From Candidatus Acidiferrales bacterium (GTDB lineage Bacteria; Acidobacteriota; Terriglobia; Acidiferrales; UBA7541): a stretch of 51,640 nt of DNA. The stretch's first letter is position 1, and each line of letters opens with the position of its first letter. The notes under the pieces were generated by a model, which had not been told where the DNA came from, searched no databases, and worked only from the letters and a program-made list of their open reading frames with translations. The translations under genes and the position numbers were made by a program. This document shows, in pieces, positions 11,802 to 35,585 of this stretch. The stretch is taken from NCBI GenBank assembly GCA_030037525.1, contig JASHRC010000116.1, positions 1 to 51,640 of the forward strand, written 5' to 3'.

Positions 11802-13574
11802 TCAGTTGCGCCCGGCGACGGTCAAGGTAGCTCCGGAAACTCGCTTTGTCTGATTCGCCCAGTTCGTTCCCGGGTAACTGAAGAGCAGATCATACCCTGG
11901 CGAGCCGCCCGCCACCACAATGTGAAAATCACGGGGGCTTTGCACGACCGGGATGCGCCCGCCGGGCTTGAGCGCGTCTAGGAAGACCTGCGCGCGGTCG
12001 GGCCGAATTCGGCCATCGGCGATCGACGCCCGGATAAAATCAATCTCATTGTCGTGCCCGAAGAAGACAGGCCCGGCGATCTTCTCATAGGGCAGGCGGG
12101 TTTGCTCATAGAGGTACTCTTGAAGACTTCTTCGACTGTAGCCATGCTTGGCGAGCTCAATCGCGCAATCCGGGTGTAGCACCAGGATATACGTCTGAGA
12201 GTGAGGCCAAACGACTCCACCGCTTTTCACTCGGGCGACAATCGAATCGATCACGCTCTGCCCCGTCCACGGGGCCACGGCACCACCGCCGAAAACCACC
12301 GGGGAGGTTACCGAGGTGGCTACCGTGACGGTACTGTCCTCGGGTTGGTAGCCGAGACTGACGTGGTACGGCTCCCACGGGCTCCTCGCCGTGTCCTCGG
12401 CAAAAGTGAAGAACGTGTACGCTTCGAGCCTTCCCGTAAGCGCCATGTCGTTCACTTGAGGCCAGGTCTGGCCGAGGTTCAACAATGATAGCCGAAGCGC
12501 ACGGCCCACGGTGCTATTCGCTCTCCACCCATGGCCCAACATCCCGATGCCGGAGTTAAACCCCAACTCCTGGGCGATCGGGCCATCCACGATGACGACC
12601 GGCGTGAACGAGCCGGTGGAAGCTTGCAGGTGGGTTAGATCGTAGTGCTTGTCGGTGAACCCCTCCATCGCCGCGAGAATCACCGGGAAATACTCGGGCT
12701 TCGCGCCGGCCATTACCGCATTGATCGCGATCTTTTCAACCGTAGCCGTGCCGTTCTTGGGCGCCACCTGCCCGATGATTTCTTGAGGCGAACGCGTGGT
12801 TGCCGCGAGCATCCTTCCGACCAATTCGCGCGTGGGCGGAACGATGGGCAAGCCGTCGGCCCAGTGATTGGCCAGGAACAACTCATTGAGTTTCTCCAAG
12901 GCGCTCGGGAAATCCGCGGCGCTCACACGAATGGTTCCATCTTCGCGCTGCCTTTCGATCGGGGAGGGCCTGGCTTCTTCGGGCGCGAGCGGCCGGGTTA
13001 GCGCGTCGATCGTCGAATCGAAACACCGGGCAGCCAGAGGTTCGGCTTCCTCCTTGCTCGAACGCGCCCGATAGTATTGGCCGGCCGGGAGTGCGACGAT
13101 GCGGATCCCCGGCATGCCGACGTCTTTGGCTGCAGATTTTGCGTCGGAAAGAAATTCGCTGGTTATGAAGTAAACGCCCGGCATTCCTGATTTTTCAATT
13201 TCGACCGTGTCGTGGGAACCCCACCACGTGCAGCTCCCTCAATCACCGACGCCGAAAACGAACAGATCGCCTTGCTGCTTGACGGTGGGATACCACTTCG
13301 GGGTGTTCGTGATCGTTTGCGCCGGGGGCTTCGGATACATGGCCACCGCCACCGTGGGATATTTTTCTCGCAGCATGTCCGCGAGGGCGTCCAGGAAATT
13401 GTTCGCGCCGAATTTGCCGTTATCGATCAGGACGATTTTCTTGCCCTCAAGAGCCGGGAAGCGCGGAGTGATACCACGCGTTGGCGGCGGAGGAATTTCG
13501 CCGCGCGGGTTCATGACTTCCAACTGAGCCATCGCTTTATCTTCTGCGGAAAATCCTCTTGCGGCGTCTGCCAT
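11802..13574 (-). CDS. UGSC-type selenoprotein A (in-frame TGA at 13239-13241)
   Basis: The 590-residue product is read through one TGA codon as Sec112. The motif is FGVGD-U-GSC-TWWGSHD, matching the name of the UGSC family of (seleno)proteins. The upstream half (APPTR...FPALEGKKIVLID) and the downstream half (EIEKSGMPGVYFITSEF..., then NHWADGLPIVPPTRE, EKIAINAVMAGAKPEYFPVILA, INGPIAQELG-like and WEPYHVSLGYQPEDS) both align with the five paralogues in the window. Both halves share one frame with no other stop. The ATG has GGAGG 7 nt upstream. No signal peptide is seen. It is the first gene of the kinase/biotin operon. Function is unknown; a redox or C-X cleavage role through the selenol/thiol pair is inferred. 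Confidence 0.85.
13212..13224 (-). promoter_or_regulatory. SECIS-like hairpin of selenoprotein A
   Basis: Stem GTGGG/CCCAC (5 bp) with loop GTT, starting 14 nt after the TGA, so the loop lies 19 nt from it. It can also be drawn as a 4-bp stem with loop GGTTC. Position and G/U-containing apical loop agree with bacterial SECIS elements. Confidence 0.6.
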
Positions 13575-13651
13575 TGATGTGCCTCCGCTGGTGGAGATGC
13601 GGGGCTAAAAAGCAGCGTTACAAAATACCATTTTAGCGTTCAGCCGTTGTC

Positions 13652-13665
13652 GTTGTCAAAACAAC
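13652..13665 (-). promoter_or_regulatory. operator 1 and promoter of the selenoprotein A/kinase/biotin operon
   Basis: On the minus strand the site reads GTTGT-TTTG-ACAAC. The embedded -35 TTGACA (13659-13654) is followed 18 nt later by -10 TAAAAT (13635-13630). A protein bound to the palindrome would cover the -35, so repression is the simplest reading. Confidence 0.75.
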
Positions 13666-13891
13666 TTCTTTTACAGGTTTTACAGGGGCGGGCGATGTGC
13701 GAGGCGCCGCTCTTTAATGTAGAATCCTTTTTTGGGTGGACCGCAAAATCCGAACATTGGCCATCTGGAGCACCACGTCGCGCGAGGGGTTCGTGCGGGA
13801 GGCTCGTAGCGATGCACCCGAAAGGCGCACGGGCGAGCCGTTCCCGAGTGTAGCGGTTACACGCTCTGGCCGCGTGCGTCCTTGTCCTGAT

Positions 13892-13905
13892 GATGTCTTG
13901 ACAAC
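13892..13905 (+). promoter_or_regulatory. operator 2 and promoter of the Apc-like operon
   Basis: The site reads GATGT-CTTG-ACAAC. -35 TTGACA is at 13898-13903, the spacer is 17 nt and -10 TAGCAT is at 13921-13926. The leader before GTG 14043 would be about 110 nt. Confidence 0.75.
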
Positions 13906-14042
13906 ATTTGCTCGACTCGGTAGCATGCCACGAAATGGCAGGCACTGGCGCGCGGCGAGTGCTCTCCGTTTCGATCCAACCGCAGTGGATCAAAGTCACT
14001 CAGGAGTTTCCTGGATGTCTCAAGTAAACCCGGGGGCAACGC

Positions 14043-16040
14043 GTGTGGATTGTTGACATCGACGTAGGCGGAACACTCACCGACGGCCTGTTTACGAGCG
14101 GCGATAGGGTTCTTTCGGTGAAGGTCGATACGACACCGCACGACCTGACCGTGTGCCTATTTGATTGCCTGGGGCAGGCAGCCGAGCGGCTCGATTTCCC
14201 GGACGCAGCGAGGCTTCTAGAAAACGTGGAGCTCATTCGCTGGTCCACGACGATCACCTCGAACGTGCTCGCGGAGTTGCGCGGGCCGCGCATCGGGCTG
14301 CTTGTTTCCGAGGGCCACGAGCGGGATCTTTACGGACGGGACGCCGAAAACACCATCCTGGGCAAGCTCCTGGCGCCGCGCGACGTGATCGGCGTCGGCG
14401 AGGCGGCGAGGGAAGCGGCGATCATGAACGCCGCGCGCGTTTTGCTCGAAAGTGGCGTGCGCCGCATCTGCGTGAGTCTCCGCGGCGCGCACCGCGCTCC
14501 CGAGCGGGAATTCGAACTGAAGCGCATCATCGGGCAGCAGTACCCGGACCACTTTCTGGGCTCCGTGCCGGTGCTCGCGGGCAGCGACATTTCGAAGGTG
14601 GCCGATGACCGCACGCGCACCTATTGCGCGGTGGTAAACGCGTACACGCACGGCGCGCTGGCCGCCACACTGTTCAAAGCCGAGGACGATCTGCGCGAAA
14701 CGTCGCACTATGCCGGGTCGTTCTTGGTGAGCCACGTGAATGGCGGCGTAGCCGGAGTGGCCAAGACGCGCGCCATCGACACGATCGAATCCGGCCCCGT
14801 GCTCGGGATTCTCGCAAGCGCCTACGTGGCCAAGGCGCAGGGGTTAGAGGATGTGATCGCCATGGATATCGGCGGGACGACGGCGAAGATGAGCGTGCTC
14901 GGGCACGGCGAGCCCATCTATCGGAAGCCCTCCGGCCTGTTTGGCATCCCCCTGGAGCTATCGCTGCCATACCTGCGCTCGATCGCGCTGGGCGGCGGCA
15001 GCGTCGTGAAACCGCGTCCCGGCGAGAAGCCGCCGGTCGAGCTGGGCCCGGAAAGCATGGGTTCGTATCCCGGCCCCGCCTGCTACGCGCTGGGCGGCGA
15101 TAAGCCCACGCTTACCGATGCGTTCGTCACCGCGGGACTAATCAACCCGGACTATTTTCTTGGCGGAACGAAGCCCATTGACCGCGAGCTCGCGCGGAAG
15201 GCGATCGAGGAGTGCGTCGCCGGGCCTTTGCGAATTTCGACCGAGGAGGCCTCGGGCGCGATTATGGGCCGGGCGTTCGATTTGGTCGCCGGGATGATCG
15301 GTCATGCGCGGTCCGAACTGGGGCGGGATTTTTCGAAGCACACGCTTTTCGCCTATGGTGGCAATGGCGGGTTGTTCGCCTGCGGCGTGGCCGAGCGCTC
15401 GGGACTCACCTCCGTCGAGGTTTTCGCTCTGGGTCCGGTGTTTAGCGCCTTTGGGTCGTCTGTTTCGGATATTTCGCACGTATACGAGCGAGCGATTGCG
15501 GACGAGGAGATTTCCGATGCCGGCGTCAAGCGCATCGGCGCGATGCTCCAGGAGATGAAGAAGGAAGGCGCCCAGGACTTGCTCGGCGAGGGGATCCGGC
15601 CGGAAAAGCTCATCTACGGAATCGAATTCGAGGTGAGGGGAAAAGGGCCGCATTCGGCGCCGGTGGCCTGGCCGGAATCGGCGCTCGGTTCCGCGCGGGA
15701 GCTCGAGGCGGCGCTGAGAGCAGCGATGGGCACGCCCAATGGCCCGATCGGACTCGAGTTGCTCCGGTTGCGCGTACGAAAGCCCATGCCGAAGCTGCCG
15801 CTCACCGAGCGGCCGCTAGAAGGTCGAGACTCCTCTCACGCGCGGCTGGGCAAGAGGCGCGTGCTATGGGGAAGCTGGTCCGGCGAAGCGCAAATCTACC
15901 GCTGGGAATCGCTTCGGCCTGGAAATCGCGTGGAGGGCCCGGCCATCCTCGAGGGCGCAAACACCACCTATTTCGTGCCGGATAGCTGGGCGATCGTGCT
16001 CGACCGCTACGGGAACGGAAGGTTCGAGCGCGTCTCCTGA
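14043..16040 (+). CDS. Apc-type carboxylase alpha subunit, HyuA-like ASKHA ATPase (first)
   Basis: The 665-residue protein of the hydantoinase A / acetone carboxylase family starts at GTG 14043. The ASKHA phosphate-1 motif DVGGTLTD is at residues 6-13 and a second ATP-binding element MDIGGTTAKMSV is near residue 275. The family uses ATP to activate a ketone or bicarbonate (Apc) or to open a cyclic amide (hydantoinase). As first of five genes of about 665, 127, 706, 685 and 338 codons, its position and size match the 70-kDa subunit of acetophenone carboxylase. I infer an ATP-dependent carboxylase with unknown acceptor; a hydantoinase-like amidase is the alternative. Confidence 0.85.
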   Translation: MWIVDIDVGGTLTDGLFTSGDRVLSVKVDTTPHDLTVCLFDCLGQAAERLDFPDAARLLENVELIRWSTTITSNVLAELRGPRIGLLVSEGHERDLYGRDAENTILGKLLAPRDVIGVGEAAREAAIMNAARVLLESGVRRICVSLRGAHRAPEREFELKRIIGQQYPDHFLGSVPVLAGSDISKVADDRTRTYCAVVNAYTHGALAATLFKAEDDLRETSHYAGSFLVSHVNGGVAGVAKTRAIDTIESGPVLGILASAYVAKAQGLEDVIAMDIGGTTAKMSVLGHGEPIYRKPSGLFGIPLELSLPYLRSIALGGGSVVKPRPGEKPPVELGPESMGSYPGPACYALGGDKPTLTDAFVTAGLINPDYFLGGTKPIDRELARKAIEECVAGPLRISTEEASGAIMGRAFDLVAGMIGHARSELGRDFSKHTLFAYGGNGGLFACGVAERSGLTSVEVFALGPVFSAFGSSVSDISHVYERAIADEEISDAGVKRIGAMLQEMKKEGAQDLLGEGIRPEKLIYGIEFEVRGKGPHSAPVAWPESALGSARELEAALRAAMGTPNGPIGLELLRLRVRKPMPKLPLTERPLEGRDSSHARLGKRRVLWGSWSGEAQIYRWESLRPGNRVEGPAILEGANTTYFVPDSWAIVLDRYGNGRFERVS

Positions 16041-16084
16041 AGCGAAAGGCGGGCTCGAGCGGCGAGGAAGCGAAGGGGGAATCG

Positions 16085-16468
16085 ATGTCAGCTGAAACCG
16101 AACGGATTCGCATCACTGAGTATCTGGATCTCGATCTTCGAAAGGAGACGTGGATCTGCAACCGGTGCGAGCGCGTGCTGGGACCGGCGCGGGAGAATTA
16201 CAAGAAAGGGTGCCTCGTGTACGACCGCGATCCTCGCGAAATCCACCAGCCGCTGGTTTCCGCCGCGTTCAATTTCTCTCCCGACCCCGTGTGGGTGCGC
16301 ATCGTCGAATGCTATTGTCCCGGCTGCGGAACACAGATCGAAACGGAATATCTTCCTCCGGGGCATCCGTTCACGCATGACATCGAGCTCGACCTGGACG
16401 GTCTCAAGGAGCGGCTGCGCAAGGGCGAGTACGTGATCCGCAACCGGCGGCTCGAGGCGGCCGAGTGA
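16085..16468 (+). CDS. Apc-type carboxylase small zinc-site subunit
   Basis: The 127-residue protein has a CNRC pair near residue 23, a single Cys in KKGC and a CYCPGC cluster near residue 79, a likely zinc site. It ends with a charged amphipathic segment. The acetone and acetophenone carboxylases each contain a small subunit of about 15-20 kDa, and this gene sits exactly where the 15-kDa Apc subunit gene lies. It overlaps the next gene by 4 nt (GTGA), so the two are translationally coupled. Confidence 0.8.
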   Translation: MSAETERIRITEYLDLDLRKETWICNRCERVLGPARENYKKGCLVYDRDPREIHQPLVSAAFNFSPDPVWVRIVECYCPGCGTQIETEYLPPGHPFTHDIELDLDGLKERLRKGEYVIRNRRLEAAE

Positions 16469-18585
16469 ACTCGATCGATATCGATGTCGGCGGCACCTTC
16501 ACCGATCTGGTCCTCCATTACGATGGCCAGACGCTGATCAAGAAAGTCCCCACCACGCCGTATGACCTCTCGGTCTGCTTCTCCCGCGTGATCGAGGAAG
16601 GCGCGGCCGCGCTGGACAAGAAGCTCGACGAGTTGCTGCCGTCGGTCGACATGATCCGCTACTCCACCACGATCGCCATGAACCGGCTGATCGAGAGAAA
16701 GGGCCCGCGCCTCGGCCTGATTACCACGGAAGGTCACGAGGACGTGGTGCTGATTGGCCGCGGCGCGCAATGGATCGACGGCACGCGCGTACAGGAGCGG
16801 CGCAACCTCGCCACCCAGCACAAGCCCGACCCTCTGGTTCCGCGCGACATGATCGTGGGAGTAAAAGAACGGGTCGACTCTCGCGGCGTGGTCATCCGGC
16901 CATTGGATGAAAACGACGTGCGCGAAAAGGTGCGTTGTCTAGTGAGCCGCGGCGCGCGCGGATTTGTAGTTTCGCTTTTGTGGGGTTTCTTGAATCCAGT
17001 CCACGAGCGGCGCGTGAAGGAGATCATTCGCGACGAGTACAAGGAGTTTCACATCGGCTACATGCCCGTCGTCCTCGCCGGCCAGGTGGTCGGAAAGCTC
17101 GGCGAGTACGAGCGCACGCTCGCGGCGATCCTCGATGCCTACCTGCAGCGCTCCATGCAGATCGAACTTTCCGCGATGTGGGACCGCCTGCGGGAACGCG
17201 GCTACAAGAAGCCTCTCTTGATGATCCAAAGCTCGGGGGGCATCGCCGAGGTCTTCCGCACCTCGGCGAGCCGCACCTTCAATAGCGGCCCGGTCTCTGG
17301 CCTCATGGGAGCGCACCACGTGGCGAAATCGCTCGGCTACCACAACGTGGTGATGACGGATATGGGCGGGACGAGCTTCGATGTGGGAATGGTGGTGAAG
17401 GACAGCGTGCGCAGTTACGACTTCCGCCCGATCATCGACCGCTGGATGGTCGGCATCACCATGATCAAGACGCTTTCGATCGGCGCGGGCGGCGGTTCGA
17501 TCGCCTCGGTCAACCGCCTACTCGAAAACCGCTTGCAGGTGGGGCCGCGCAGCGCCGGCTCCATGCCCGGCCCGGCGTGCTTCAACCTGGGCGGAAGCGA
17601 ACCGACTGTCACCGACGCGGATGTCGTGCTCGGGTACCTCAATCCGGAGTATTACTACGGCGGGCGGATGCGTCTAGATAAGAACCGCTCGATTCAAGCC
17701 ATCCGCGAGAAAATTTCCAAGCCTCTCGGGATGAGCGTCGAAGAAGCGGCGCTCATCATCCGGAAGGTCGTCAATGGCAACATGTCCAGTGCGATCATGA
17801 AGGAAGTCCACCTGCGCGGGTATAGCCCGGAGGATTTCATTCTGTTCGTCGCGGGTGGCGCCGGGCCCACGCACGCCGAAGGATTCAAGGGCGACATCCC
17901 CAAGGCCGTGATGTTTTCCTTTTCGCCGGTCTTTTGCGCCTACGGCTCTTCGACCATGGACATCATGCACGTCTATGAAGCGTCGAAAAAACTGACGCTC
18001 ATGACCCCCGGGAACCAGCAGCTCACCGAGGAGTATTCCGCGTTTAACACCACGGTCGAGGGCCTCCTCGAGCAGGCGCGAAGGGATCTCGCGGCCGACG
18101 GACTTGATCCCGCAAAGGCCGCCTTCGTGCTCGAACTCGACATGCTCTATGGTGGGCAATTCCACGTCAAGCGCGCCCTTTCGCCGCAGCTTGCGATTCA
18201 CTCGGCGGCAGATGTGCGCGCCGTTTGCGACGCGTTCAACAAGGAATTCGCCGAGGCTTTCAGCCCGTTCGTGGTGAATCCCGAAGGCGGCATTTTCGTA
18301 GAGAGCTTCATTTTGAAGGCCATCGTCACCACGCCAAAAGTCGAGCTGCCGAAGCTGCCGCTCGGGCCAAGCGATCCTCGGCCGGCGCGTAAGGGCCAGC
18401 GCCCGGTTTTGTGGGCGGGCGAAAAGGATTTTCGCGAGACACCCATTTTCGCCTACGAGTCGCTCGCTCCCGGCAACGTCGTGCCTGGGCCTGCGGTCAT
18501 CGAGGGCGAATATACGACGATGGTGGTGCCGCCCGACATGCGCGTCTCGCTCGATGAGCGCCGGCTGGGCATCCTGGAAAAGTAG
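16465..18585 (+). CDS. Apc-type carboxylase alpha-prime subunit, HyuA-like ASKHA ATPase (second)
   Basis: The 706-residue paralogue of the first HyuA-like subunit has DVGGTFTD at residues 6-13 and TDMGGTSFDVGMV near residue 300. In acetophenone carboxylase the two different alpha-type subunits are proposed to phosphorylate the ketone and bicarbonate separately; a pair of non-identical HyuA subunits is what distinguishes the Apc layout from simple two-subunit hydantoinases. It starts with GTG overlapping the stop of the zinc-site gene. The product is cytoplasmic, with no signal or membrane segments. Confidence 0.85.
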   Translation: MNSIDIDVGGTFTDLVLHYDGQTLIKKVPTTPYDLSVCFSRVIEEGAAALDKKLDELLPSVDMIRYSTTIAMNRLIERKGPRLGLITTEGHEDVVLIGRGAQWIDGTRVQERRNLATQHKPDPLVPRDMIVGVKERVDSRGVVIRPLDENDVREKVRCLVSRGARGFVVSLLWGFLNPVHERRVKEIIRDEYKEFHIGYMPVVLAGQVVGKLGEYERTLAAILDAYLQRSMQIELSAMWDRLRERGYKKPLLMIQSSGGIAEVFRTSASRTFNSGPVSGLMGAHHVAKSLGYHNVVMTDMGGTSFDVGMVVKDSVRSYDFRPIIDRWMVGITMIKTLSIGAGGGSIASVNRLLENRLQVGPRSAGSMPGPACFNLGGSEPTVTDADVVLGYLNPEYYYGGRMRLDKNRSIQAIREKISKPLGMSVEEAALIIRKVVNGNMSSAIMKEVHLRGYSPEDFILFVAGGAGPTHAEGFKGDIPKAVMFSFSPVFCAYGSSTMDIMHVYEASKKLTLMTPGNQQLTEEYSAFNTTVEGLLEQARRDLAADGLDPAKAAFVLELDMLYGGQFHVKRALSPQLAIHSAADVRAVCDAFNKEFAEAFSPFVVNPEGGIFVESFILKAIVTTPKVELPKLPLGPSDPRPARKGQRPVLWAGEKDFRETPIFAYESLAPGNVVPGPAVIEGEYTTMVVPPDMRVSLDERRLGILEK

Positions 18586-18611
18586 ACGAGGGAAAGAATC
18601 GAGGAACCGCA

Positions 18612-20669: not shown

Positions 20670-20675
20670 CGAGCC

Positions 20676-21692
20676 ATGGCAGTGGGCGCCACTCCCCGCG
20701 GGATCGCGCGGGGACTCGTACAGGGAGTCGAGCCGCCGCGGCCGCTTTTCCTGCCGATCGTTTTTTCGCACGGCGCGCGAATCGAAAACCTGACGCTCCG
20801 CCAATTTCTGAACAATCCAACGAAAATTTCGAGCTCGCTGCGTCAGATTCGGGGTCATCTCGGCGCGGATGGAATTACCTGCTACTTCGACCCGTTTCTC
20901 GAATTAGAGGCGCTGGGCGGGAGGGTGGAGTGGAACGCGGATGGCTCGAAGCGCTCGCTCGCTTGGCCACAGCATCCCGCGGCAAGGGAATCCCTCTCCG
21001 GGACCGCTGCGCCAGAGCGGAGCGACCGTGTTGCGGTCGGGGTCGAAGTGATTCGCAGAATGAAACCGATGGTTCGTGACGACTGTCTTCTCTGCGCGAG
21101 CGTCAGCGGGCCGCTTACGCTCGGTGCGCACCTCTCCGAGCTCGGCTCCCGTGCCTCTTTGCGCTACGAGGATCTGGATTCGACTGCGGTCGATCGCGCG
21201 GCGGCGGTGATGACCGGCATCGCCAAGGCATTCGTGGAGGCGGGTGCGCAGGTGATCTTCCTGCGCGAGGAGACTCTTCCTCCGCTTTCGGAAAGCGATC
21301 TCGCGGACTGGATGTCACGCCTTGCTACGGCGATCAACATTGTGCGGTTTTATGAGGCGCTCCCCGTTCTCCTGCTCACCGATCCTCGCTCGGCGGAGGA
21401 AAATTCGGCCTTGATCGCACGTGAACGGTGGGATGCGGTGGTTTCGCCCGCGTTCGACGAACTCGCTCCCGAAAGGCTCGAGAAGTTCCGAGGCCTCATG
21501 CCCTCGAGATTCGGGGTTGCGCTTCCTCCCAAACAGTTCGAGCCAGGGGATACCAGCGGGGTCGGAATCGGCGAACGGGTGCGCGGCGTGGTCTCGAGGT
21601 CGCATCCGGCAATTGTCACGACGGGGGGTGATGTGCCGGTCACAGCCGATATGGAGCGCTTGAAAAAAGTGTGGGAAAATATTCGATGGTGA
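20676..21692 (+). CDS. URO-D-superfamily-like protein in the position of Apc epsilon
   Basis: The 338-residue product resembles uroporphyrinogen decarboxylase-fold proteins: LFLPIVFSHGARI near the N-terminus, HLGADGITCYFDPFLELEALGG, CASVSGPLTLG, and a barrel-like repeat pattern. It has no haem-biosynthesis context. In acetophenone carboxylase the fifth subunit (about 34 kDa) separates from the core during purification and has an unknown detailed role; order and size fit that subunit. I cannot show direct homology to it. It may bind or deliver a substrate. Last gene of the operon. Confidence 0.65.
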   Translation: MAVGATPRGIARGLVQGVEPPRPLFLPIVFSHGARIENLTLRQFLNNPTKISSSLRQIRGHLGADGITCYFDPFLELEALGGRVEWNADGSKRSLAWPQHPAARESLSGTAAPERSDRVAVGVEVIRRMKPMVRDDCLLCASVSGPLTLGAHLSELGSRASLRYEDLDSTAVDRAAAVMTGIAKAFVEAGAQVIFLREETLPPLSESDLADWMSRLATAINIVRFYEALPVLLLTDPRSAEENSALIARERWDAVVSPAFDELAPERLEKFRGLMPSRFGVALPPKQFEPGDTSGVGIGERVRGVVSRSHPAIVTTGGDVPVTADMERLKKVWENIRW

Positions 21693-23834: not shown

Positions 23835-23845
23835 AGGAAATTGAT

Positions 23846-27527: not shown

Positions 27528-27583
27528 AGGCCTCTTGATTCCGGGCGCCGGCTTGCCCGTGCCCGCTGATAGACGCTGTGGCG

Positions 27584-29422
27584 TCAATCCGTAGCGGTGG
27601 CGGGTAAGGTCGGGAGCGCGGCCTCGGGAATGCCGCAGGCGCCATCTTTGCACGTTACGGGCTCGGGCATGCGCAGCGGCTTCGCGTCGCGGCGGATTCC
27701 GCACTTCGGCCGCCACTTGTCGACCGAGACGCTTCGTGTGTAGGCGAAGTCCGTGGTGATCCACATCGGGTTCGTCTCGCCGCCGACGACGAGAATGTTG
27801 AGGTCATCGGCCGAACGCCGCGGAGCGATGAGCGCGTCGTTCGGCAGCTTGGCCCACGTCGCAAATGGTTCGATTCCCTGCTGCGCGAGCCCTCTCGCAA
27901 AGCCTGACTGCATCTGGCCTTCCCAATAATGCCCCGCGGGGACGTGTGAGTTTTCTACGATCCATTTGCAGGCGTCCTGCTTCGTCTTGAACCCTTCGAC
28001 TCGTAGATTCTTAGCAACCAAAGGATCGACGACGAAGGTGATGCTTGTCCCCATCGAGCCAAACGTAGAGATAACGTGCGCCATTTCTTTCGCCGGACCG
28101 AGGCCGAAGTTGAGCATGTTCCATCCACGGAACAAGCTCACGACGCTTTCGTCCGGACGGAAGCCTTTCTGCACGTGAAACGGCTCGAAGACGCTCAGCT
28201 CCTCATTTTCGCCGCAGCACATGTTGTTGTAGTTCAGATTGTGGCCGAAGGAGGCCATGAAGTTCTCGCCTGCGCGCGCATCGCCGAAATTAATGCTCAT
28301 CAGCGTCCATGCCCGGCCGATGACCGAATTTGCGAGATTGAACGGACTGAGCGCGGCCGTGCCGTAATTCATTCCGATCTCGTTGCGAATGGGCCCGTTC
28401 ACCACCATCATGCGGCCCCAGGACGTGGTCGAGCTCGGCATGGACGGCTCCTGCGACTCGGCAAGCGCGAGGATTACCGGAAAATGCTCGGGCCGCGCTC
28501 CCGCCATTACCGCGATCACCGCCACTTTTTCGACCGTGTACTCTAACCTTTCCTGATGCGTGGTGACACACATGCGGCCCACGATCTCATCGGGAACATG
28601 ATCGGTTCCCGTGAGCATCTCGGCCACGCGCTCTTCGGTGGGAAGCACGATGGGCAATCCGTCGGTCCATCCGTTTTCGACGAACTGCCGATAGAGATCC
28701 TCCGCCGTGGCCGCGGGGAGCAAGCGCGGGCGGCGCGGCTTGCGGGGCGCAGCGGTAGGGTGTTTTTCTTTTTCTGTGAGCGGTAAGGTGAGCGCCTCCA
28801 CGACTTCCTGTATGAATGGCCTTGCGGTGATCGGATTGTTTCCCTCAATGTACTGGCGCAGCACGGTCCGCGACATGCCCATGACCGGATAGGGAGGAAA
28901 AGCAAAGCGCAACGGCGTGCCGCGAACGCGTGCGTCACGTTCGACAAAATCCGCAAATCGGGCCGTGACCAAAGGGGCGGTCGGGATCCCGTATTCGTCT
29001 TCCAGAGTTCTCGAGTAATCGGCGACACTCGCCGAACAGGCCTCTCAACCACCGACGCCGAGAATGGCGGCATGGGCGCCGCGGGACTTCATTTCCATCC
29101 ACAGCTCGGGGTCATCGGTGAACATGGTGCCACGCTTGTGCCGCACAACGGTCTTCACGCTCGGCATCTGCTCGGAAAACCAGTCCTGAAGTTCCTGCAT
29201 GAATTCGAGACTGCCCGCAAATCCCGTCTCCACCAAGTAGACCGTCTTGCCGTCCAGCGAGCCGGTGCGGGGCGCCATGGAAAGTGGTTTCAGGTCGCCG
29301 CTGGGCTGCGCGACCGGATCCAGTATGTCACCGGGCTTCGACTGGGCATCCAGACGACGCCCGAAAATGCCGGAGGGCTGCCCGTGGGGATCTAGGACCG
29401 TCAGTTTCCCGTGTTGCTCCAT
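27584..29422 (-). CDS. UGSC-type selenoprotein E, cytoplasmic (in-frame TGA at 29045-29047)
   Basis: The 612-residue product has Sec126 in GVGG-U-EAC-SASVADYS. ATG 29422 is chosen because GGAGG lies 8 nt upstream; a TTG at 29458 is also in frame. Shared segments are SMAPRTGSLDGKTVYLVETGFAGS, MPSVKTVVRHKRGTMF, LEDEYGIPTAPLV, NGWTDGLPIVLPTEERVAEMLTGT, VEKVAVIAVMAGARPEHFPVILA, VNGPIRNEIGMNYG and ENEELSVFEPFHVQ. After the DKWR end a tail has C-KDGA-CGIP, like selenoprotein C. No signal peptide. It follows the SDR gene by 68 bp, in an operon with the MarR regulator. Confidence 0.86.
29020..29034 (-). promoter_or_regulatory. SECIS-like hairpin of selenoprotein E
   Basis: Perfect stem CGGCG/CGCCG, extendable to six pairs by an outer T-A, with loop AGTGT. 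The loop begins 15 nt after the TGA and contains GU. Confidence 0.65.
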
Positions 29423-29490
29423 GTCCGTAGCCTCCTCTATCAGCGCGATTCTGCCCAAAACCCCAACAGGGCCTCTCCCGCCGGATCACC

Positions 29491-30408
29491 CTATCTCCCC
29501 ATCGCCGCTCGGATGGTTTCTTTGAAGATCGGATTGGAAGTCAGATACGGGATTTCCTTAGCGCGCCTTTCGTTGATGGGCTCATCTGGGAACGACGCCA
29601 GCATGGCCTCCATGCGCTCCGCGACGCCTTCCTTGAATTCACGATGCGTGAAGATGTAGAGATCGTTGCGCTGGACGCCGCGCAAAACCCGCTCTCCGCA
29701 TTCTTCAATACTCATCCAGGGTGGAGACTGAACGGCGGCCATCCGTTGCCGTCGCTGTTCCTCATAGGCCAGCAAGCCGCTGTCCTTCTTATATTTTTCT
29801 GGGCGAAGCCGGCTACTGTCGCCGATGGCTGTCAGAACCGGTCCGGGGCAGAAGGCGGAGACGCCGATATTGTCTGGCGCGAGTTCGCTCCGCAGCGTCT
29901 CCGATAGAGCGATGACAGCAGCCTTGGCCGTGTTGTAAATGGAACAATTCGGAACCACGATCACACCAGCCATGGATGCGGTGTTGACAATATGTCCACC
30001 TTCACCGTGCTTCAAGATTCGCGGCAGCCAGGTGAGGATGCCGTTAACAACGCCGTTCAACAGCACCCCCAATCCCCAGTCCCAGTCGGCGTAGGCACAC
30101 TGCTTGAACGGGCCGGCGATGTCTATGCCGGCGTTGTTGCAGAGTAGGTGAATCTTACCGAAGGCACCCTCAGTTTCGCTCGCAGCGTTCTGGTACGCCC
30201 CACGGTCGGTAACGTCCAACCTGATCGCGTGGACCCTCTGCCCCTGGCCTTGCGTCTGGAAGTGCGAAAGCGCTCCGTCGAGGTGCTCCTGCTGGACATC
30301 GGCGAGCACGACGTTCATCCCGCGGTTCACGCAGGCCATGGCAATGCCCAGGCCGATGCCGCTTCCTCCCCCAGTGACAAATGCAACCCTGCCATTTAGC
30401 TCGTTCAT
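29491..30408 (-). CDS. short-chain dehydrogenase/reductase (classical SDR)
   Basis: The 305-residue protein has the cofactor motif GGGSGIGLG (residues 13-21), NNAGID, and the catalytic Ser/Tyr/Lys region NTASMAGVIVV...YNTAKAA. It oxidises or reduces a hydroxyl/carbonyl with NAD(P). It lies between the MarR regulator gene (62 bp upstream) and the selenoprotein E gene in a minus-strand operon, which suggests it acts on the same substrate class. Substrate cannot be read. Confidence 0.88.
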   Translation of the reverse strand: MNELNGRVAFVTGGGSGIGLGIAMACVNRGMNVVLADVQQEHLDGALSHFQTQGQGQRVHAIRLDVTDRGAYQNAASETEGAFGKIHLLCNNAGIDIAGPFKQCAYADWDWGLGVLLNGVVNGILTWLPRILKHGEGGHIVNTASMAGVIVVPNCSIYNTAKAAVIALSETLRSELAPDNIGVSAFCPGPVLTAIGDSSRLRPEKYKKDSGLLAYEEQRRQRMAAVQSPPWMSIEECGERVLRGVQRNDLYIFTHREFKEGVAERMEAMLASFPDEPINERRAKEIPYLTSNPIFKETIRAAMGR

Positions 30409-30470
30409 TGGCTTCGGCTCTCTTCCATTCGCCGGCGAACAAACATCAGCGCGGCGGATACATGCGCGCC

Positions 30471-31052
30471 CTAACGCCGACGGGGGGTACGGCCTCTCTG
30501 TTGTAGTTCCCGCTGAAAGATCTCCTCGGCTCGAGCTAAGAGCAAATCGAGTACGCGTTCCACATCCCGAGTTCGCTGTCCTTGCAGCAATTGGCGCTGA
30601 TACGCTTGCGCGACTGGCGCGATCTCCCGCAAGAGCGATTCACCCTTTGTTGTCAACGAGAGCAACGAAGCGCGGCTGTCAGACGGATGTGCCGTCCTGG
30701 TGATCAATTTGCGGCGCACCAGAGCCGCCAACGAGCGACTGATCCAGGCCTTGTCAACGTGCGTTCTGCGGCTGACCTCATTCACAGAGATCGGCTGATA
30801 GGCACCGAGCATCACCAAGATCCGCAGATCGGTGGGCTTCACGCCGAAGCGTTGCTTAAAGGTGAGCGTGCCAATACGAAGAATCAATTCGGCGATCCGG
30901 ACGATACGCACAGAAACCAGCCGGATCAGAGCGTCGACATGGGGCGCAGGCTCATGGCGACGCTTGGCTCCGGCGAGGCGAATACCTCGAGATCGTTCTT
31001 CGAAGGACTTGCTGCTCTCGAGCACCGGCACGCCGTCAGGACTAGTGGTCAT
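30471..31052 (-). CDS. MarR-family transcriptional regulator
   Basis: The 193-residue protein starts at ATG 31052, preceded by GAGGAAGAGGA; the frame is open upstream without conserved sequence. The winged-helix core is LRILVMLGAYQPISVNEVSRRTHVDKAWISRSLAALVRRKLI followed by the wing with HPSDSRASLLSLT. MarR proteins bind palindromes as dimers and release DNA on binding small, often aromatic, ligands. It is encoded upstream of the SDR and selenoprotein E and near operator 5, so it is the best candidate to bind the shared 14-bp palindrome. The link is inferred. Confidence 0.85.
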   Translation of the reverse strand: MTTSPDGVPVLESSKSFEERSRGIRLAGAKRRHEPAPHVDALIRLVSVRIVRIAELILRIGTLTFKQRFGVKPTDLRILVMLGAYQPISVNEVSRRTHVDKAWISRSLAALVRRKLITRTAHPSDSRASLLSLTTKGESLLREIAPVAQAYQRQLLQGQRTRDVERVLDLLLARAEEIFQRELQQRGRTPRRR

Positions 31053-31545
31053 TCCTCTTCCTCGTGTGGTAGGCGAGACCGTCCTTGCCGACGATAGAGG
31101 AATCCGGCGCAGGGATGCGATCGAATCCCCTCTTGAGAACCGGGCATTCTTCCACGGATTCTGGGACCGGACCTCGCACTGGCTCCTCGTCGGATTCTGC
31201 GCGGCCGAAGTCACACCGACATGGGCTGGCAGGGTCAATCATACCGAGTGGCCGATGCGCGCGCAATGATGTGTTGACAACAATTAACGCGCGCGATTAT
31301 ATAACAGCATCGGCATGGTGCGGTGCCCCGTGGGGACCACCATGGCGAGATTTCCCAGGCTTCTAGGTCAAAGAAGAGCGCGGCGCGGTTATGGCTGACC
31401 ATGTTCGAGGGCATCAACTTTTACGTGACGGCAAGATCCCGCCGATTTCCGTTGCGCGTGCCGGCGAAATGTCTCGCTTCCGTCGCTGGAAAACGATATA
31501 CGGATGCAATCATGGGGAGTCGCGGCATAATCGGAAGATTGAATC
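31053..31545. promoter_or_regulatory. divergent regulatory region between MarR and E1 operons
   Basis: No convincing gene is found in this 493-bp stretch. It holds operator 5 and its promoter, then a leader of about 240 nt before the E1-alpha start. I see no riboswitch I can name in the leader and no recognisable promoter for the MarR operon. Confidence 0.5.
31268..31281 (+). promoter_or_regulatory. operator 5 and promoter of the E1/lipoyl/selenoprotein F operon
   Basis: The site reads GATGT-GTTG-ACAAC and contains the 11-bp palindrome TGTTGACAACA (31272-31282). -35 TTGACA is at 31274-31279. The -10 is TATATA at 31296-31301 (16 nt) or TATAAC at 31298-31303 (18 nt). This is the strongest promoter seen in the window. 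Confidence 0.78.
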
Positions 31546-32544
31546 GTGGCTGAGAGACGAATGAATCCGACCAACGAGCAATTGGTTTCGCTGTTTGAGA
31601 GGATGACCCTCATACGACTCATGGAAGAGCGCTTGAGGGCCGATGCAGGAGCTGGGAGGCTCCCCGGCGCCGTACACCTCTACATCGGTCAGGAAGCCGT
31701 GGCGGCCGGTGTTTGCGCAAATCTGGATGAGACGGATTGGATCACCAGCACGCACCGGGGTCACGGCCACTTTCTCGCAAAGGGTGGCGACCCGAAGGCG
31801 ATGATGGCCGAGATTTGGGGCAAACGCACGGGCATCTGCAAGGGCATGGGTGGGTCGATGCACGTGGCCGATCTTTCCAAGGGAATCCTCGGTGCGAACG
31901 GAATCGTGGGCGGCGGTTTCGCAATCGCGACCGGTGCTGCGCTAAGCGCGAAACTCAGCGGCAATCGACGCGTGGCGGTGGCGTTCTTTGGTGATGGCGC
32001 CGCCAACCAGGGCGTCTTCATGGAATGCCTCAACGTGAGCACGCTGTGGCAACTCCCTCTGGTTTTCGTCTGCGAGTACAATCACTTCTGCGAATTTACG
32101 CCGACCGTTACGGTCACGGCCGGGGAAATCGCCGATCGCGCGAGAGCCTTCAAAATCCCCTGCGAAGTTGTGGACGGCAACGACGTCGTAGCGGTGTGGA
32201 AGGCAGCCGCCCAGGCCATTGAATGGGCCCGCAGCGGCAAAGGCCCGGCTTTTATCGAGGCGCAGACATATCGCATTCAGGGGCACCTTGAGTCGGAAGA
32301 TCTATTTCTCGCGGGGGGGAAGTATCGCGAGAAACAGGAAATCGAGGAATGGCGCAAGGCCGATCCCATTTCCCGTCTCGCGAAACTTCTGGTGTCGATG
32401 GGCGTGCGCACGGCCGTCCAATTGGACGACATTTCCACGAAGATCGCCGGGATTGTGGAAGACGCCGTCAGGTTCGCAGAAGCGAGCGAGCCAGCTGATC
32501 CAGAACTGACTTTTGAGGTTATGTTCGCCGGGCAGAAACCGTGA
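31546..32544 (+). CDS. 2-oxoacid/acetoin dehydrogenase-type E1 component, alpha subunit
   Basis: The 332-residue ThDP-dependent dehydrogenase alpha subunit begins at GTG 31546; ATG 31561 is an alternative. The ThDP/Mg motif is GDGAANQGVFMECLNVSTLWQLPLVFVCEYN (GDG...NQ...E..N), ending in EYN rather than the usual NN. Other family segments are STHRGHGHFLAKGG and GICKGMGGSMH. It decarboxylates a 2-oxoacid or cleaves an acyloin and passes the acyl group to a lipoyl arm. First gene of an operon with the E1-beta, lipoyl and selenoprotein F genes. Confidence 0.86.
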   Translation: MAERRMNPTNEQLVSLFERMTLIRLMEERLRADAGAGRLPGAVHLYIGQEAVAAGVCANLDETDWITSTHRGHGHFLAKGGDPKAMMAEIWGKRTGICKGMGGSMHVADLSKGILGANGIVGGGFAIATGAALSAKLSGNRRVAVAFFGDGAANQGVFMECLNVSTLWQLPLVFVCEYNHFCEFTPTVTVTAGEIADRARAFKIPCEVVDGNDVVAVWKAAAQAIEWARSGKGPAFIEAQTYRIQGHLESEDLFLAGGKYREKQEIEEWRKADPISRLAKLLVSMGVRTAVQLDDISTKIAGIVEDAVRFAEASEPADPELTFEVMFAGQKP

Positions 32545-32553
32545 GGGCTCAGC

Positions 32554-33537
32554 ATGCCGCGTAAACGCTACATCCAGGCGATCAACGAGGCTCTGTTTGA
32601 GGAAATGGAGCGGGATCCAAAGGTCATTGTGTTCGGCGAAGACGTGGAACTCGCGATTTTCGGTGATACCAGAGGATTGCTGGAGCGCTTTGGACACGAT
32701 CGCATTCGCAACACCCCGATCTGCGAGGCCACCCTCGCGGGGATGGCCGTCGGGGCGGCGGTTACCGGCTATCACGTCGTGCTGCACATGATGTTCTCCA
32801 ACTTCATCTACACAGGCTTTGATGCGATCGCCAATCAGATGGCCAAACTCCGGCTCATGACCGGGGGGCAGATCGAATTGCCCCTTACCGTCATTGCCGG
32901 CTACGGCGGCGGCCGCTCCACGGCCGCTCAGCACTCCGACACACCTCACCCGCTTTTGATGAACCTCGGCGGCGTCAACGTGCTCGTACCGGCTACTCCG
33001 GCGGATGCCAAGGGACTGCTGAAACAGGCGATTCGCACCAAAAATCCAAGTTTCTTTTTGGAGGCCAGCGGTCGCGGCGGCGATAGCGGCGAGGTGCCCG
33101 ACGGAGATTACACGGTGCCCTTCGGTAGAGCAGCGATTGCGCGCGCGGGCGCCGACATCACCATGGTGGCCATTGGCTCCATGCTGAAGCCGGCGCTGAG
33201 CGCTGCAGAGAAGCTCAATTTGGCGGGAATCGATGCAGAAGTTGTTGACCCGCGTACTTTGGTGCCGCTCGATGAGCAAACCATCGTCGGTTCGATTGAG
33301 AAGACGGGGCGGGCGATTCTGGTAGACGAGGCGCGCGACCGCTGCAGCGCTGCAAGCCACATTGCCGCCATCATCGCGGACAAGGCATTCTCAAGCCTCA
33401 AGGCTCCCATCAAGCGAGTGACCGTTCCGAACGTTTCCATGCCGTACGCGCCCAACGCTGAGAGCCGCGTCCTGCCCAGTGAGGACCGCATCGTACAAAT
33501 CGCAACAGATTTGGTTCGCAGCAAACAATTGGCATGA
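32554..33537 (+). CDS. 2-oxoacid/acetoin dehydrogenase-type E1 component, beta subunit
   Basis: The 327-residue partner of the alpha subunit shows INEALFEEMERDPKVIVFGEDVE near the N-terminus, TPICEATLAGMAVGAA, the central AAQHSDTPHPLLMNLGGVNVLVPATP and the C-terminal transketolase segment VVDPRTLVPLDEQTI. With the alpha subunit it forms the ThDP site. It follows the alpha gene by 9 nt and overlaps the lipoyl gene by 4 nt (ATGA). No E2 acyltransferase or E3 gene follows. Confidence 0.87.
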   Translation: MPRKRYIQAINEALFEEMERDPKVIVFGEDVELAIFGDTRGLLERFGHDRIRNTPICEATLAGMAVGAAVTGYHVVLHMMFSNFIYTGFDAIANQMAKLRLMTGGQIELPLTVIAGYGGGRSTAAQHSDTPHPLLMNLGGVNVLVPATPADAKGLLKQAIRTKNPSFFLEASGRGGDSGEVPDGDYTVPFGRAAIARAGADITMVAIGSMLKPALSAAEKLNLAGIDAEVVDPRTLVPLDEQTIVGSIEKTGRAILVDEARDRCSAASHIAAIIADKAFSSLKAPIKRVTVPNVSMPYAPNAESRVLPSEDRIVQIATDLVRSKQLA

Positions 33538-33770
33538 GAACGACGCTGCAGCTCTCGCGAGTCGGCATGAACATGGAGGAAGCCACAATCGTCAAGTGGT
33601 ACAAGCAGCCGGGAGAGTCATTCAAGGCCGGCGAGCCCTTGTATGAGATTGAAACGGAAAAGGTGAATCAGGAAATTGCCGCGACATCGGACGGAAGGAT
33701 AATCCAGGTATATGCCCGGGAAGGGGAGATTGTGAAGGTAGGCGGTCAAGTTTGCGTCGTCGACGTGTGA
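33534..33770 (+). CDS. free-standing lipoyl-domain protein
   Basis: The 78-residue product is a complete biotinyl/lipoyl-type domain and nothing else. The modified Lys is in EIETEKVNQEI, a lipoyl-type ETEK site rather than the biotin MKM type. It lacks the E3-binding and catalytic acyltransferase domains of E2 enzymes. It is coupled to the E1-beta gene by a 4-nt overlap and followed 48 nt later by selenoprotein F. It resembles a stand-alone carrier such as the H-protein in role, though not in sequence. The acyl or reducing equivalents it carries must be received by another protein. Confidence 0.85.
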   Translation: MRTTLQLSRVGMNMEEATIVKWYKQPGESFKAGEPLYEIETEKVNQEIAATSDGRIIQVYAREGEIVKVGGQVCVVDV

Positions 33771-33818
33771 GGTCATTGGCGGGATGCGCTTTCCGTTCAG
33801 CGAAATCAAGGAGGAATC

Positions 33819-35585
33819 ATGAACAGACGAAAGATGTTGGCAATGCTGGGCGCAAGTCCGGCGCTAGTCGCAGGTTCTCCGATCCATGCACGAACAGCTT
33901 CGAACGATTCCTCAGCCCTTGGCGAGAGCCTGACAACAGTTCTCAACCCAGGCATAGCAAACAAGCTGGTTACGCGGTACCCTTTGGCGCCTCCGCTCGA
34001 CAATCTCAATAACAAAACGCTCTACATGATCAACCTTTCCTGGGAGGGCCCGGATGCGGCTAATTACTTTTATGGAGCCATGACCGAGTGGCTCGAGAAG
34101 CACTACACGGGCGTGAAGACCGTAGTGAAAATCACCCCGGAAGGCATGTTTGGCCTGGATCCCGCGATCCTGAAGGAAATGGTCGCCAATAAAGCCGACG
34201 GAGCCATCGTGGGCGTCGCCGGTTGAAACGGCTGCTGCGCGGCCGTGAGCCGCTGGGCCAAGCAGATTCAGACACAACTCAAGATTCCCGCGATAGGCAT
34301 CGCTTCAGCAAACGTGGTGCACTACGCCATCGACTACGATTTCAAATACAGCAACGGTATGCCGGTCCGCTATGTCAGCGTTCCGTTTCCTTTCACGGGG
34401 CAGCCACGCGCCGTGGATGTCGGATATGTGGCCGGTAAAGACATGCTGACTGGCCAGCCGTTGATGGCCGCAGTGGTCAAAGCGCTCACGGATCCTCTGA
34501 CCACGGAAGAAAAAATCTCGGGCAAGCCGCCGGATCAGCCCGAAGAGTCGCGACTTCTGAAGCCTGACACGGAAGAAAATCTGCGGCACCTGTTTGAAGA
34601 CAAGGGCTGGACCGACTACAACTGGATTCAGCTTCCCACCGAAAAACTCGTCGTGGAAATGCTGAAGGGCACCAGTCATAAGCCTGAGGAAGTGATCAAG
34701 ACGGTCGACATCACGGGCGGTTCGCGTCAGCTCACCGTGGAGAAAGTCGCGATCGCCGCCGTGATGGCCGGAGCTTCACCCGAGCATTTTCCGGTGATTT
34801 TGGCGCTGGCGACGCAGGCGCCTTTCGGAAACTCCACAAGCTCCATGGCGAACATGGTCGTGATCAATGGTCCGATCTGCAAACGGCTCAACTTTAACTG
34901 CGGGACGAATGCCCTGGGTCCGTACAATCGATCGAACGCGGTCGTCGGCCGCGCCTTCACCATCGTCTCGAAAACCGTCGGCGATCTTCGAAACAACGTA
35001 AATGCCTGGGAAAGCTTGGGCAGCAACTTCCAATACAACAACTTGTGCTTTGCCGAAAACGAAGAAGGACTGCCGGAGGGTTGGGACCCTCTGCACGTTC
35101 AAATGGGCTTCCGGTCTACCGACAATGTCGTGACGGTCGGAATCGGGTGGACGGCCATATCGAGCGTCGGAGGGAGTCAGAACCTCTACCCCACGCATCA
35201 TCTGATGCGAGACTACATGCGCTCGCTTTCGGCATCCGGTTCGGCCGCCACGATTTTGGTGGATCCGACCGTTGCGGGACTGCTCAAGGATGCTTATGGT
35301 TTCAAGACGAAGGCGGAGTTAAGCGCATGGTTCTCCCAAAACGTCGAAAAGACGGCAGGGTGCTTCTGGGGGAACGGGGTGATTCAAAGCACCGATGTTT
35401 CGCTGGCTCTGCAGGGTCTTGAGCCTTATGCAAGCTGGAGGAAGCTGCCGGAGGACGCGCTGATCAAGCCATTCACCAACGCCAACGCGATCCGCGTGGT
35501 GGTTACGGGTGGGAAAATCCAGACGACTTGGTTCGTCACGGATTTCGGTCTGCGTCGCGGAGTGAAGGTGGACGACTGGGCGTAA
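33819..35585 (+). CDS. UGSC-type selenoprotein F, Tat-like leader (in-frame TGA at 34224-34226)
   Basis: The 588-residue product has Sec136 in GVAG-U-NGC-CAAVS. The leader MNRRKMLAMLGASPALVAG is nearly the same as in selenoprotein D (twin-arginine-like RRKML). Shared segments are LAPPLDNLNNKTLYMINLSWEG, DKGWTDYNWIQLPTEKLVVEMLKGT, VEKVAIAAVMAGASPEHFPVILA, VINGPICKRLNFN, ENEEGLPEGWDPLHVQMGF and a C-terminus VKVDDWA without a Cys tail. GGAGGA precedes the ATG. Last gene of the E1/lipoyl operon. The putative export leader is odd for a protein encoded with cytoplasmic E1 subunits. Confidence 0.86.
34239..34253 (+). promoter_or_regulatory. SECIS-like hairpin of selenoprotein F
   Basis: Perfect stem GCGGC/GCCGC (5 bp) with loop CGTGA, 12 nt after the TGA, so the loop starts 17 nt from it. 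Same register and same loop as selenoprotein D. A competing hairpin ACGGC/GCCGT overlaps it. Confidence 0.65.

Follow-up and report, generated by a model that had tools for sequence, protein, structure and literature searches.

Six genes in the window, the whole 51,640-nucleotide stretch of a Candidatus Acidiferrales genome analysed here, each carry an internal in-frame TGA, which raises the question of whether these codons are read as selenocysteine (Sec) and what the products might do.

Reading of the in-frame TGA codons

Translation of P0001-P0006 with TGA as U gives six unbroken proteins of 553-612 residues, with the TGA at residues 112, 132, 112, 140, 126 and 136, respectively. This bears out the single TGA per gene in six genes that the preliminary description had reported, and the six motifs it listed stand as written (Table 1). 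The proteins can be aligned over their full length, at pairwise identities of 28-54%; 56 columns are invariant besides the TGA and the Cys at +3. As a chance check, the window was scanned for stop codons flanked, in frame, by 100 or more open codons on the 5' side and 300 or more on the 3' side. Fifteen stops qualify, and six of the eight TGAs among them are the P0001-P0006 sites; the other two are an ordinary boundary of two genes (32542) and a codon antisense to P0003/P0004 (25833).

Table 1. Positions of the UGSC genes, their SECIS-like hairpins and neighbouring genes in the window
Feature	Position	Strand	Remarks
P0001, UGSC selenoprotein gene	11802..13574	-	TGA 13239-13241, UGSC; no detectable signal peptide; PF24696 111.8 bits
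P0002, UGSC selenoprotein gene	22173..23834	+	TGA 22566-22568, USYC; N-terminus Sec-type signal-like; PF24696 84.2 bits
P0003, UGSC selenoprotein gene	23964..25718	+	TGA 24297-24299, UPGC; no signal; CxDGxCG close to C-terminus; PF24696 52.2 bits
P0004, UGSC selenoprotein gene	25752..27527	+	TGA 26169-26171, UHGC; N-terminus twin-arginine-type; PF24696 39.7 bits
P0005, UGSC selenoprotein gene	27584..29422	-	TGA 29045-29047, UEAC; no signal; CxDGxCG close to C-terminus; PF24696 61.6 bits
P0006, UGSC selenoprotein gene	33819..35585	+	TGA 34224-34226, UNGC; N-terminus twin-arginine-type; most divergent; PF24696 23.3 bits (cut-off 25)
SECIS-like hairpin of P0001	13196..13235	-	
SECIS-like hairpin of P0002	22572..22611	+	
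SECIS-like hairpin of P0003	24303..24342	+	relatives show compensatory pairs
SECIS-like hairpin of P0004	26175..26214	+	
SECIS-like hairpin of P0005	29002..29041	-	
SECIS-like hairpin of P0006	34230..34269	+	
HAD, HMGL/PYC carboxylase domain, biotin carboxylase, biotin carrier, PPDK_N, PEP-utiliser run	4624..11710	-	Pfam; run repeated in locus L163 of genome G005
Hydantoinase A, A, B genes	14043..20669	+	second resembles acetophenone carboxylase gamma, 1059 bits (below cut-off 1500)
URO-D family gene	20676..21692	+	
SDR, MarR regulator, E1 alpha and beta (thiamine dehydrogenase)	29491..33537	.	MarR and E1 recur beside relatives' UGSC genes
PQQ-dehydrogenase-type gene	35725..38145	+	332 bits 'acido-empty-quinoprotein', 315 PQQ_enz_alc_DH, both below cut-off; gene family recurs near genus UGSC genes

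The genome carries selA (561 bits), selB (365) and selD (367), and a tRNA-Sec with the anticodon tca (UCA; 70 bits). The preliminary description had found no sel gene in the window, which is correct, and those found sit on other contigs of the metagenome-assembled genome (MAG). As checks it had proposed a genome search for this machinery, which is complete, and a look for Cys in place of the UGA in homologues, which some of them have. In other homologues the Sec position is taken by Ser, Ala, Asn or Leu, so reductive chemistry does not hold for all members of the family.

The TGA is retained in all 23 comparisons that cover it, and pN/pS values of 0.18-0.53 before and 0.12-0.48 after it point to purifying selection on both sides. 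The UGSC genes read in the genus are fused, with both domains in one gene. Where an organism has two genes, the split falls between the domains, and in those examples that were checked the UGSC gene retains a TGA of its own; the consistently separate halves that had been named as evidence against the Sec reading are thus not what is found.

Each gene also has a SECIS-like hairpin just 3' of the TGA. Such hairpins were present in 12/12 of the genome's own UGSC genes, versus 166/300 control codons. In the genus comparison no fourfold sites of the gene are under tighter constraint than those right 3' of the TGA, the pattern expected of a SECIS element, and synonymous constraint just after the TGA is also seen in the Chloroflexi MAG G071. 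Taken with the compensatory pairs, these features indicate a putative SECIS element immediately downstream of the UGA.

That the genes are pseudogenes, products of sequencing error or of fission at the TGA, or cases of general UGA reassignment is highly improbable. Such a reading would fit the whole-stretch hairpin energies, which are no better than those of shuffles (not significant), but not the complete Sec machinery, the Cys homologues or the synonymous constraint. The TGA is conserved and selection acts on both of its flanks, which rules out frameshift, fission or error, in agreement with the earlier view that six such events are implausible. General reassignment is ruled out in G071, where 0/60 partner domains contain a TGA; no tRNA-Sec was found in that MAG among 150 scored of 734 candidates, the best being a tRNA-Ser. 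P0001-P0006 are, as judged from sequence, almost certainly genuine UGA-encoded selenoproteins, read by the host's own Sec machinery.

Family, copy number and neighbourhood

All six proteins match the UGSC family PF24696; the preliminary description had pointed out that one of the motifs is identical to the name of this family. Five score above the cut-off of 25 bits; P0006 lies below it, and the alignment makes it paralogous to the other five along its whole length. None of the six reaches the curated cut-off (125) of the equivalog model NF041046, the best score being 91.2. The family is already known and, in the available portions of the literature, is described as one of the selenoprotein families that abound in aquatic metagenomes. 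The six copies noted earlier hold for the locus but undercount the whole genome, which has 12 UGSC genes (11 search matches with one TGA each, and P0006, which that search missed). The family is amplified in 11 of 19 genus relatives (5-18 matches each), and G071 has at least 115 matches; both observations seem to be new. Loss of Sec machinery does not account for the patchy distribution of UGSC, since selA is above cut-off in 53 of 61 genomes and UGSC present in 15.

The C-terminal partner domain (about 370 residues) is a regular companion of the UGSC domain, either fused to it or encoded next door. No Pfam or NCBIfam model matched it, an observation that seems to be new. Comparison with GrdB by hhalign gave no similarity, and the best Foldseek match, to fumarate hydratase (E 3.1e-4, TM 0.23/0.28), is too weak for an assignment. 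A match to the domain also lies at the edge of locus L162.

A twin-arginine signal is predicted for two of the six proteins, P0004 and P0006. Tat-type motifs occur in 41/62 genes of the genus loci read, or about two thirds, with start codons picked by script and the signal called by a motif rule. Most UGSC proteins of the genus are predicted to be exported, chiefly via Tat.

Parts of the locus recur in four further genomes of the genus, accompanied by carboxylation and dehydrogenase genes. The 'dedicated selenium-dependent pathway' suggested earlier is thus supported only in part. PQQ-type genes lie near UGSC genes in 19/34 genus loci versus 1/20 background loci. Outside the genus they occur at 0/80 UGSC loci (E 1e-12, 40% of query), which rules them out as a general partner. 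Many UGSC genes of the genus have PQQ-dehydrogenase-type and cytochrome c genes beside them, an observed association that may extend to function. TlpA-like thioredoxins are found at 5/34 loci versus 0/20 in the background, and TrxB-like proteins, scoring below the thioredoxin reductase cut-off, at 14/80 loci, a count without a background set. The neighbours also include catabolic and transport genes; none of the neighbour families identified is for metal transport or resistance. The Tat-type motifs and PQQ-type neighbours in the genus, and thioredoxin-type reductants as recurrent neighbours, seem to be new.

Possible function

The UGSC domain aligns with the Sec domain of GrdB/PrdB (hhalign 96.8%, E 2.2e-10, 95 columns, Sec on Sec), with 20 shuffled controls giving 0.06-0.29%. 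On sequence evidence it appears to be a distant homologue of that domain, a link that seems new. None of the six proteins matches PF07355 at E<=1, and TIGR01917 is matched by P0001 only (E 0.18). The Sec lies after a strand, at the start of a helix. The model of the domain is flavodoxin-like, with alternating alpha/beta structure, and the best 50 of 1690 Foldseek rows are headed by flavodoxin-type proteins and lumazine synthase at low TM, with no thioredoxin among them. A sequence search of solved structures gave a single match, to a ribosomal protein (E 0.5), which is noise.

The best overall explanation, and a probable one, is that these are two-domain selenoenzymes with a GrdB/PrdB-like Sec domain. 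The N-terminal UGSC domain would serve as the Sec domain, and the partner domain, by its position, may replace the substrate-holding subunits of glycine and proline reductases. As in those enzymes, the selenolate would attack a small substrate and reductively cleave a bond. The Sec-Cys bond formed in cleavage would then be reset by thiols, possibly from a TrxB-type reductase where the protein is cytosolic and from a TlpA-like thioredoxin in some exported forms. The set of paralogs may have diversified by substrate and serve islands of catabolic genes. Thiol-fuelled cleavage by a selenolate, as a mechanism, is put forward tentatively, at somewhat less than an even chance.

The UxxC motif and the thioredoxin-type neighbours would also suit general thiol-disulfide or peroxide oxidoreductases acting on protein disulfides or oxidants, and a Trx-like fold, which implies such a role, is suggested for UGSC in the available published text. 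This is unlikely given the flavodoxin-like model, the 50 best Foldseek rows with no thioredoxin among them, the GrdB/PrdB homology, the large regular partner domain with catabolic neighbours, and the high copy number. Less likely still is that the Sec is a metal or metalloid ligand, for transport, detoxification or cofactor binding, and not a redox nucleophile. The CxDGxCG tails of the cytosolic forms (P0003, P0005) and the export of others could be so explained, and the accessible part of PMC13188914 proposes organometal chemistry for other selenoprotein operons, but the GrdB/PrdB homology and the lack of metal genes among the neighbour families identified argue against it.

If the cleavage reading is right, it is possible, though rather doubtful as a whole, that UGSC/partner-domain proteins form a GrdB/PrdB-like superfamily, so far unrecognised, of catabolic enzymes that depend on selenium and radiate by duplication much like P450s, with a Tat-exported branch in the periplasm beside PQQ-type dehydrogenases. 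Such a branch, if real, would make selenium-dependent reductive cleavage a broad tool of uncultured bacteria. The scale behind this reading is 12 genes here, as many as 18 matches in one relative from the genus, and 115 or more in G071, a number roughly three times that of the largest prokaryotic selenoproteome found in publications (39). A bacterium with more than 100 selenoproteins, if confirmed, would move the ceiling now accepted for the use of selenium, and the amplification suggests that selenium can sustain a large enzyme radiation. The GrdB/PrdB and thioredoxin-type reductant links give the family a testable chemistry. Ordinary gene calling likely splits each UGSC gene in two, so the metabolism of its members may be misread.

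Relation to known systems

Tat-exported selenium formate dehydrogenases likewise combine a Sec enzyme with a twin-arginine signal, but are unrelated molybdoenzymes. The Sao and Tso operons, as described in the available part of PMC13188914, also have several adjacent selenoprotein genes; these encode different selenoproteins, whereas the six here are paralogs of a single family. With the known UGSC family (PF24696; NF041046, 'UGSC family (seleno)protein') the proteins share the N-terminal domain and a UxxC with Sec, although the motif here varies beyond UGSC. A 2008 paper (PMC2398784, in the part available) already noted that UGSC is fused to another domain, 'Unknown_1'; six paralogs in one locus, export signals and the neighbourhood are absent from the accessible portions of the published UGSC descriptions. 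With GrdB/PrdB of the glycine, betaine, sarcosine and proline reductases (PF07355), the Sec, the +3 Cys, the following helix and an IPxP-type segment align; the six proteins differ in lacking a PF07355 match, in having another partner domain and in often being predicted to be exported.

Genes read through UGA and their domain architecture

P0001-P0006, the six window genes described earlier from sequence, are each interrupted by a single TGA, and read-through yields a full-length protein in 6/6. The TGA, a Cys at +3 and 56 further columns are invariant in their alignment. P0001-P0005 are old paralogs rather than fresh tandem copies, since the six share 28-54% pairwise identity, against 63-87% between these five and their best relatives among the genus loci read. 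P0006 has no relative above 51% identity among those loci. In the window, 15 stop codons are preceded by 100 or more open codons and followed by 300 or more; eight are TGA, and six of these eight belong to P0001-P0006. The preliminary description counted six copies, which holds for the locus and is too low for the genome: PF24696 has 11 matches in the source MAG (4.2 Mb, 286 contigs, 93% complete), and every match contains a single TGA; P0006, absent from that list, makes 12 genes.

Coordinates of the features discussed
Feature	Source	Position (strand)	Motif or content
P0001	window	11802-13574 (-)	UGSC
P0002	window	22173-23834 (+)	USYC
P0003	window	23964-25718 (+)	UPGC; CxDGxCG-ended, no signal
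P0004	window	25752-27527 (+)	UHGC
P0005	window	27584-29422 (-)	UEAC; CxDGxCG-ended, no signal
P0006	window	33819-35585 (+)	UNGC
PPDK_N and PEP-utiliser	window	8798-11710 (-)	separate genes, beside a biotin carboxylase set
Right-side genes	window	40335-51626 (-)	type IV secretion/conjugation (CagX-like, VirB8, TraG P-loop)
Tandem trio	L153 (G010:C71)	1-5979	CSTC, CAGC, USTC
SelB cluster example	L080	195-2153	adjoins UGSC genes

The same MAG encodes tRNA-Sec (70 bits, anticodon tca), SelB (365 bits), SelD (367) and SelA (561), all four of the components that had been proposed as a check. Among 24 rows comparing window genes with relatives, 23 span the site (22 distinct, L143 and L031 being one gene), and in every one of the 23 the window gene and its relative both carry TGA. 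Paralogs at 49-54% identity make up the rows for P0006, two for P0005 and one for P0002. The uncorrected pN/pS, with pS near saturation, is 0.18-0.53 upstream of the TGA and 0.12-0.48 downstream. Cys at the UGA position, also named as a check, is present in some homologues, and Cys and Sec versions stand side by side in the tandem trio of genome G010. By sequence comparison, the six are almost certainly selenoprotein genes.

The N-terminal domain is UGSC (PF24696; NF041046), with 5/6 proteins above the Pfam cut-off and P0006 at 23.3 against 25; none of the six reaches the NCBIfam cut-off of 125. The C-terminal 370 residues, the partner domain, match no Pfam or NCBIfam model at E<=1. Had the pieces on either side of the TGA been separate proteins, relatives should consistently divide there. 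UGSC and partner domains are indeed separate adjoining genes in several organisms (L087, L088, L130 and L134, for example), and the small UGSC gene keeps its TGA, so the natural split is between the domains and not at the TGA.

Fusion of UGSC to a domain "Unknown_1" is already in print (PMC2398784, in excerpt). UGSC is given without function in the accessible portions of PMC13188914 and PMC9312934, and mentioned with no function stated in those of PMC7539508, PMC5330540 and PMC9402790; the term was not found in the searchable portions of PMC12013277 and PMC8318568. A table row "UGSC-containing protein" in an extract of PMC5029168 gives 26 and 33, taken here as organisms and sequences.

A contig scan of genomes found relatives in at least 570 stretches (570/588), of which the best 80 were used. 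In these and the genus loci, U..C occurs in 132 of 168 domain matches, window genes being counted twice and a few matches being partial. In the remainder the site holds Cys, Ser, Ala, Asn, Leu, Met or another residue, or the match is a fragment or an alignment slip. The Sec position is taken by Ser, Asn, Leu, Met, Ala or Thr in L056, L058, L059, L060, L064, L069, L110, L116 and L123. The domain may also function without a redox residue. L121 (CAMBFS010000002.1), a MAG contig with UGSC and partner-domain genes, is titled Klebsiella pneumoniae, and the title may be wrong.

Constraint downstream of the UGA

Hairpin limits were those of the bacterial SECIS model as quoted in the available part of PMC13188914, stem length lying outside the criteria applied. 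A hairpin of -7.5 kcal/mol or lower follows the TGA in 12/12 genes of the MAG, against 166/300 control codons (Mann-Whitney p 0.0009). The energy of the 40-nt stretch in the six window genes is no better than that of shuffles (z -0.85 to +0.65). Fourfold-site constraint, which is independent of folding, is the stronger SECIS test. Across the genus (203 non-independent pairs among 59 genes), the fourfold-site difference is 0.27 at codons +4-6, 0.12 at +7-9 and 0.29 at +10-12 after the TGA, with 0.42-0.63 in the remaining bins; the two lowest of 460 twelve-codon windows begin at +6 and +5. The Chloroflexi MAG G071 (97 pairs, 59 genes) gives 0.35 at +4-6, 0.13 at +7-9 and 0.53-0.71 in the remaining bins. 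In five UPGC genes a six-pair stem is paired in 30/30 cells, with both sides changed in two pairs; its covariation score is reached by 12/500 shuffles and its count of two-sided changes by 99/500. Its innermost pair encloses two bases, which the model permits for N1/N2.

Distribution, export and gene neighbourhood

UGSC is present in 15 of 61 genomes (the source MAG and 60 relatives), and selA is above cut-off in 53/61. Of 19 genus relatives, seven lack a match, one has just one and 11 have 5-18, some of these matches being fragments of the same gene.

G071 (NC_groundwater_644, JACPQD01, 5.0 Mb) has at least 115 UGSC matches (115/208 candidates scored, 115/115 matched; loci L066, L071, L072, L083, L085, L097, L108 and L197-L216), and those listed mostly contain one TGA, a few having two or none. 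Twenty stretches picked for density (394 kb) hold 60 UGSC domains, of which 59 show UxxC and a single TGA. Since no best paralog identity exceeds 78%, duplication of strains is not the explanation for the set. G071 has SelA (568 bits); tRNA-Sec was not found among the 150 of 734 candidates scored. Three further MAGs have 22-28 matches. The available text of PMC9312934 puts the largest prokaryotic selenoproteome at 39. In view of a groundwater study (Deng 2026, cited in the portion seen of PMC13188914), no priority is claimed for the G071 set.

Export motifs were sought in the residues preceding the domain, and the counts are approximate. The 34 loci read, 33 from the genus (window included) and one, L155, from G052, a genome of the same class, hold 62 domains (59 U, 2 C, 1 unread); a twin-arginine motif precedes 41 of them, a Sec-type secretion stretch six and neither 15. 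Most USTC, UGGC, UHGC, UNGC and USSC genes are Tat-type, and the UPGC, UEAC and UDGC genes lack a signal in 10/10. In five of these 10, CxDGxCG is seen close to the C-terminus and may be a redox or metal-binding tail; such signal-less proteins occur in the window, L139, L152 and L163. Elsewhere the Tat motif is found in 7/120, and in G071 in 2/60.

Part of the window locus is conserved in genus relative G005 (L163), with USYC, UPGC and UHGC genes, MarR and E1 alpha and beta, as well as a run of PEP-utiliser, PPDK_N, biotin carrier, biotin carboxylase, HMGL and HAD; parts are kept in L154, L165 and L169. The window's separate PPDK_N and PEP-utiliser genes adjoin the biotin carboxylase set, and the arrangement is similar to a route of substrate phosphorylation and carboxylation of the phenylphosphate synthase kind. 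The right-side genes are possibly an integrated element adjoining the locus.

PQQ-dehydrogenase-type genes occur in 19/34 UGSC loci against 1/20 background loci (Fisher p 1.2e-4, nominal, one-genus loci not being independent) and in 0/80 outside the genus. Scores for two examples lie above the PQQ alcohol dehydrogenase cut-off; since the window gene misses it and matches an "empty" quinoprotein model slightly better, PQQ use by its product is not certain. None of the papers searched mentioned selenocysteine, PQQ-dependent and selenoproteins jointly. A cytochrome c cluster (7/34 against 0/20) and a TlpA-like thioredoxin (5/34 against 0/20) also recur. TrxB-like reductases are found in 14/80 loci outside the genus (a raw count, without background set), with CxxC in 11/11 listed; three have thioredoxin reductase scores of 282-315 bits, short of the 343 set as cut-off. 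Also outside the genus, a SelB cluster adjoins UGSC genes in 7/80 loci, and TctC, CoA-transferase III, ABC transport and MmgE/PrpD clusters recur, each named from one representative.

Relation to glycine and proline reductases

In the structure model (pLDDT 91.6, pTM 0.92), which has an alternating alpha/beta fold, Sec112 follows strand 104-110 and precedes helix 113-128. The top Foldseek matches are flavodiiron and lumazine synthase domains (E 4.5e-4 and weaker, low TM); none of the 50 matches listed covers the whole protein, and the partner domain searched alone gave no convincing match. A direct model search with P0001 gave a weak GrdB line (E 0.18). By hhalign, a UGSC profile of 90 sequences aligns with one GrdB (L192) and three PrdB-like proteins over 95 columns, Sec on Sec (probability 96.8, E 2.2e-10 for a single comparison), and with GrdB alone at 96.6, against 0.06-0.29 for 20 column-shuffled controls. 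The partner domain scores 0.3 against GrdB/PrdB. By profile comparison the Sec domain is judged homologous to that of GrdB/PrdB, and the regular partner domain, the export motifs and the thioredoxin-type neighbours are likewise shown. In glycine and proline reductase, a selenolate cleaves a carbon-nitrogen bond, a partner subunit holds the substrate and electrons come from thioredoxin. The UGSC enzymes may carry out related chemistry on other substrates.
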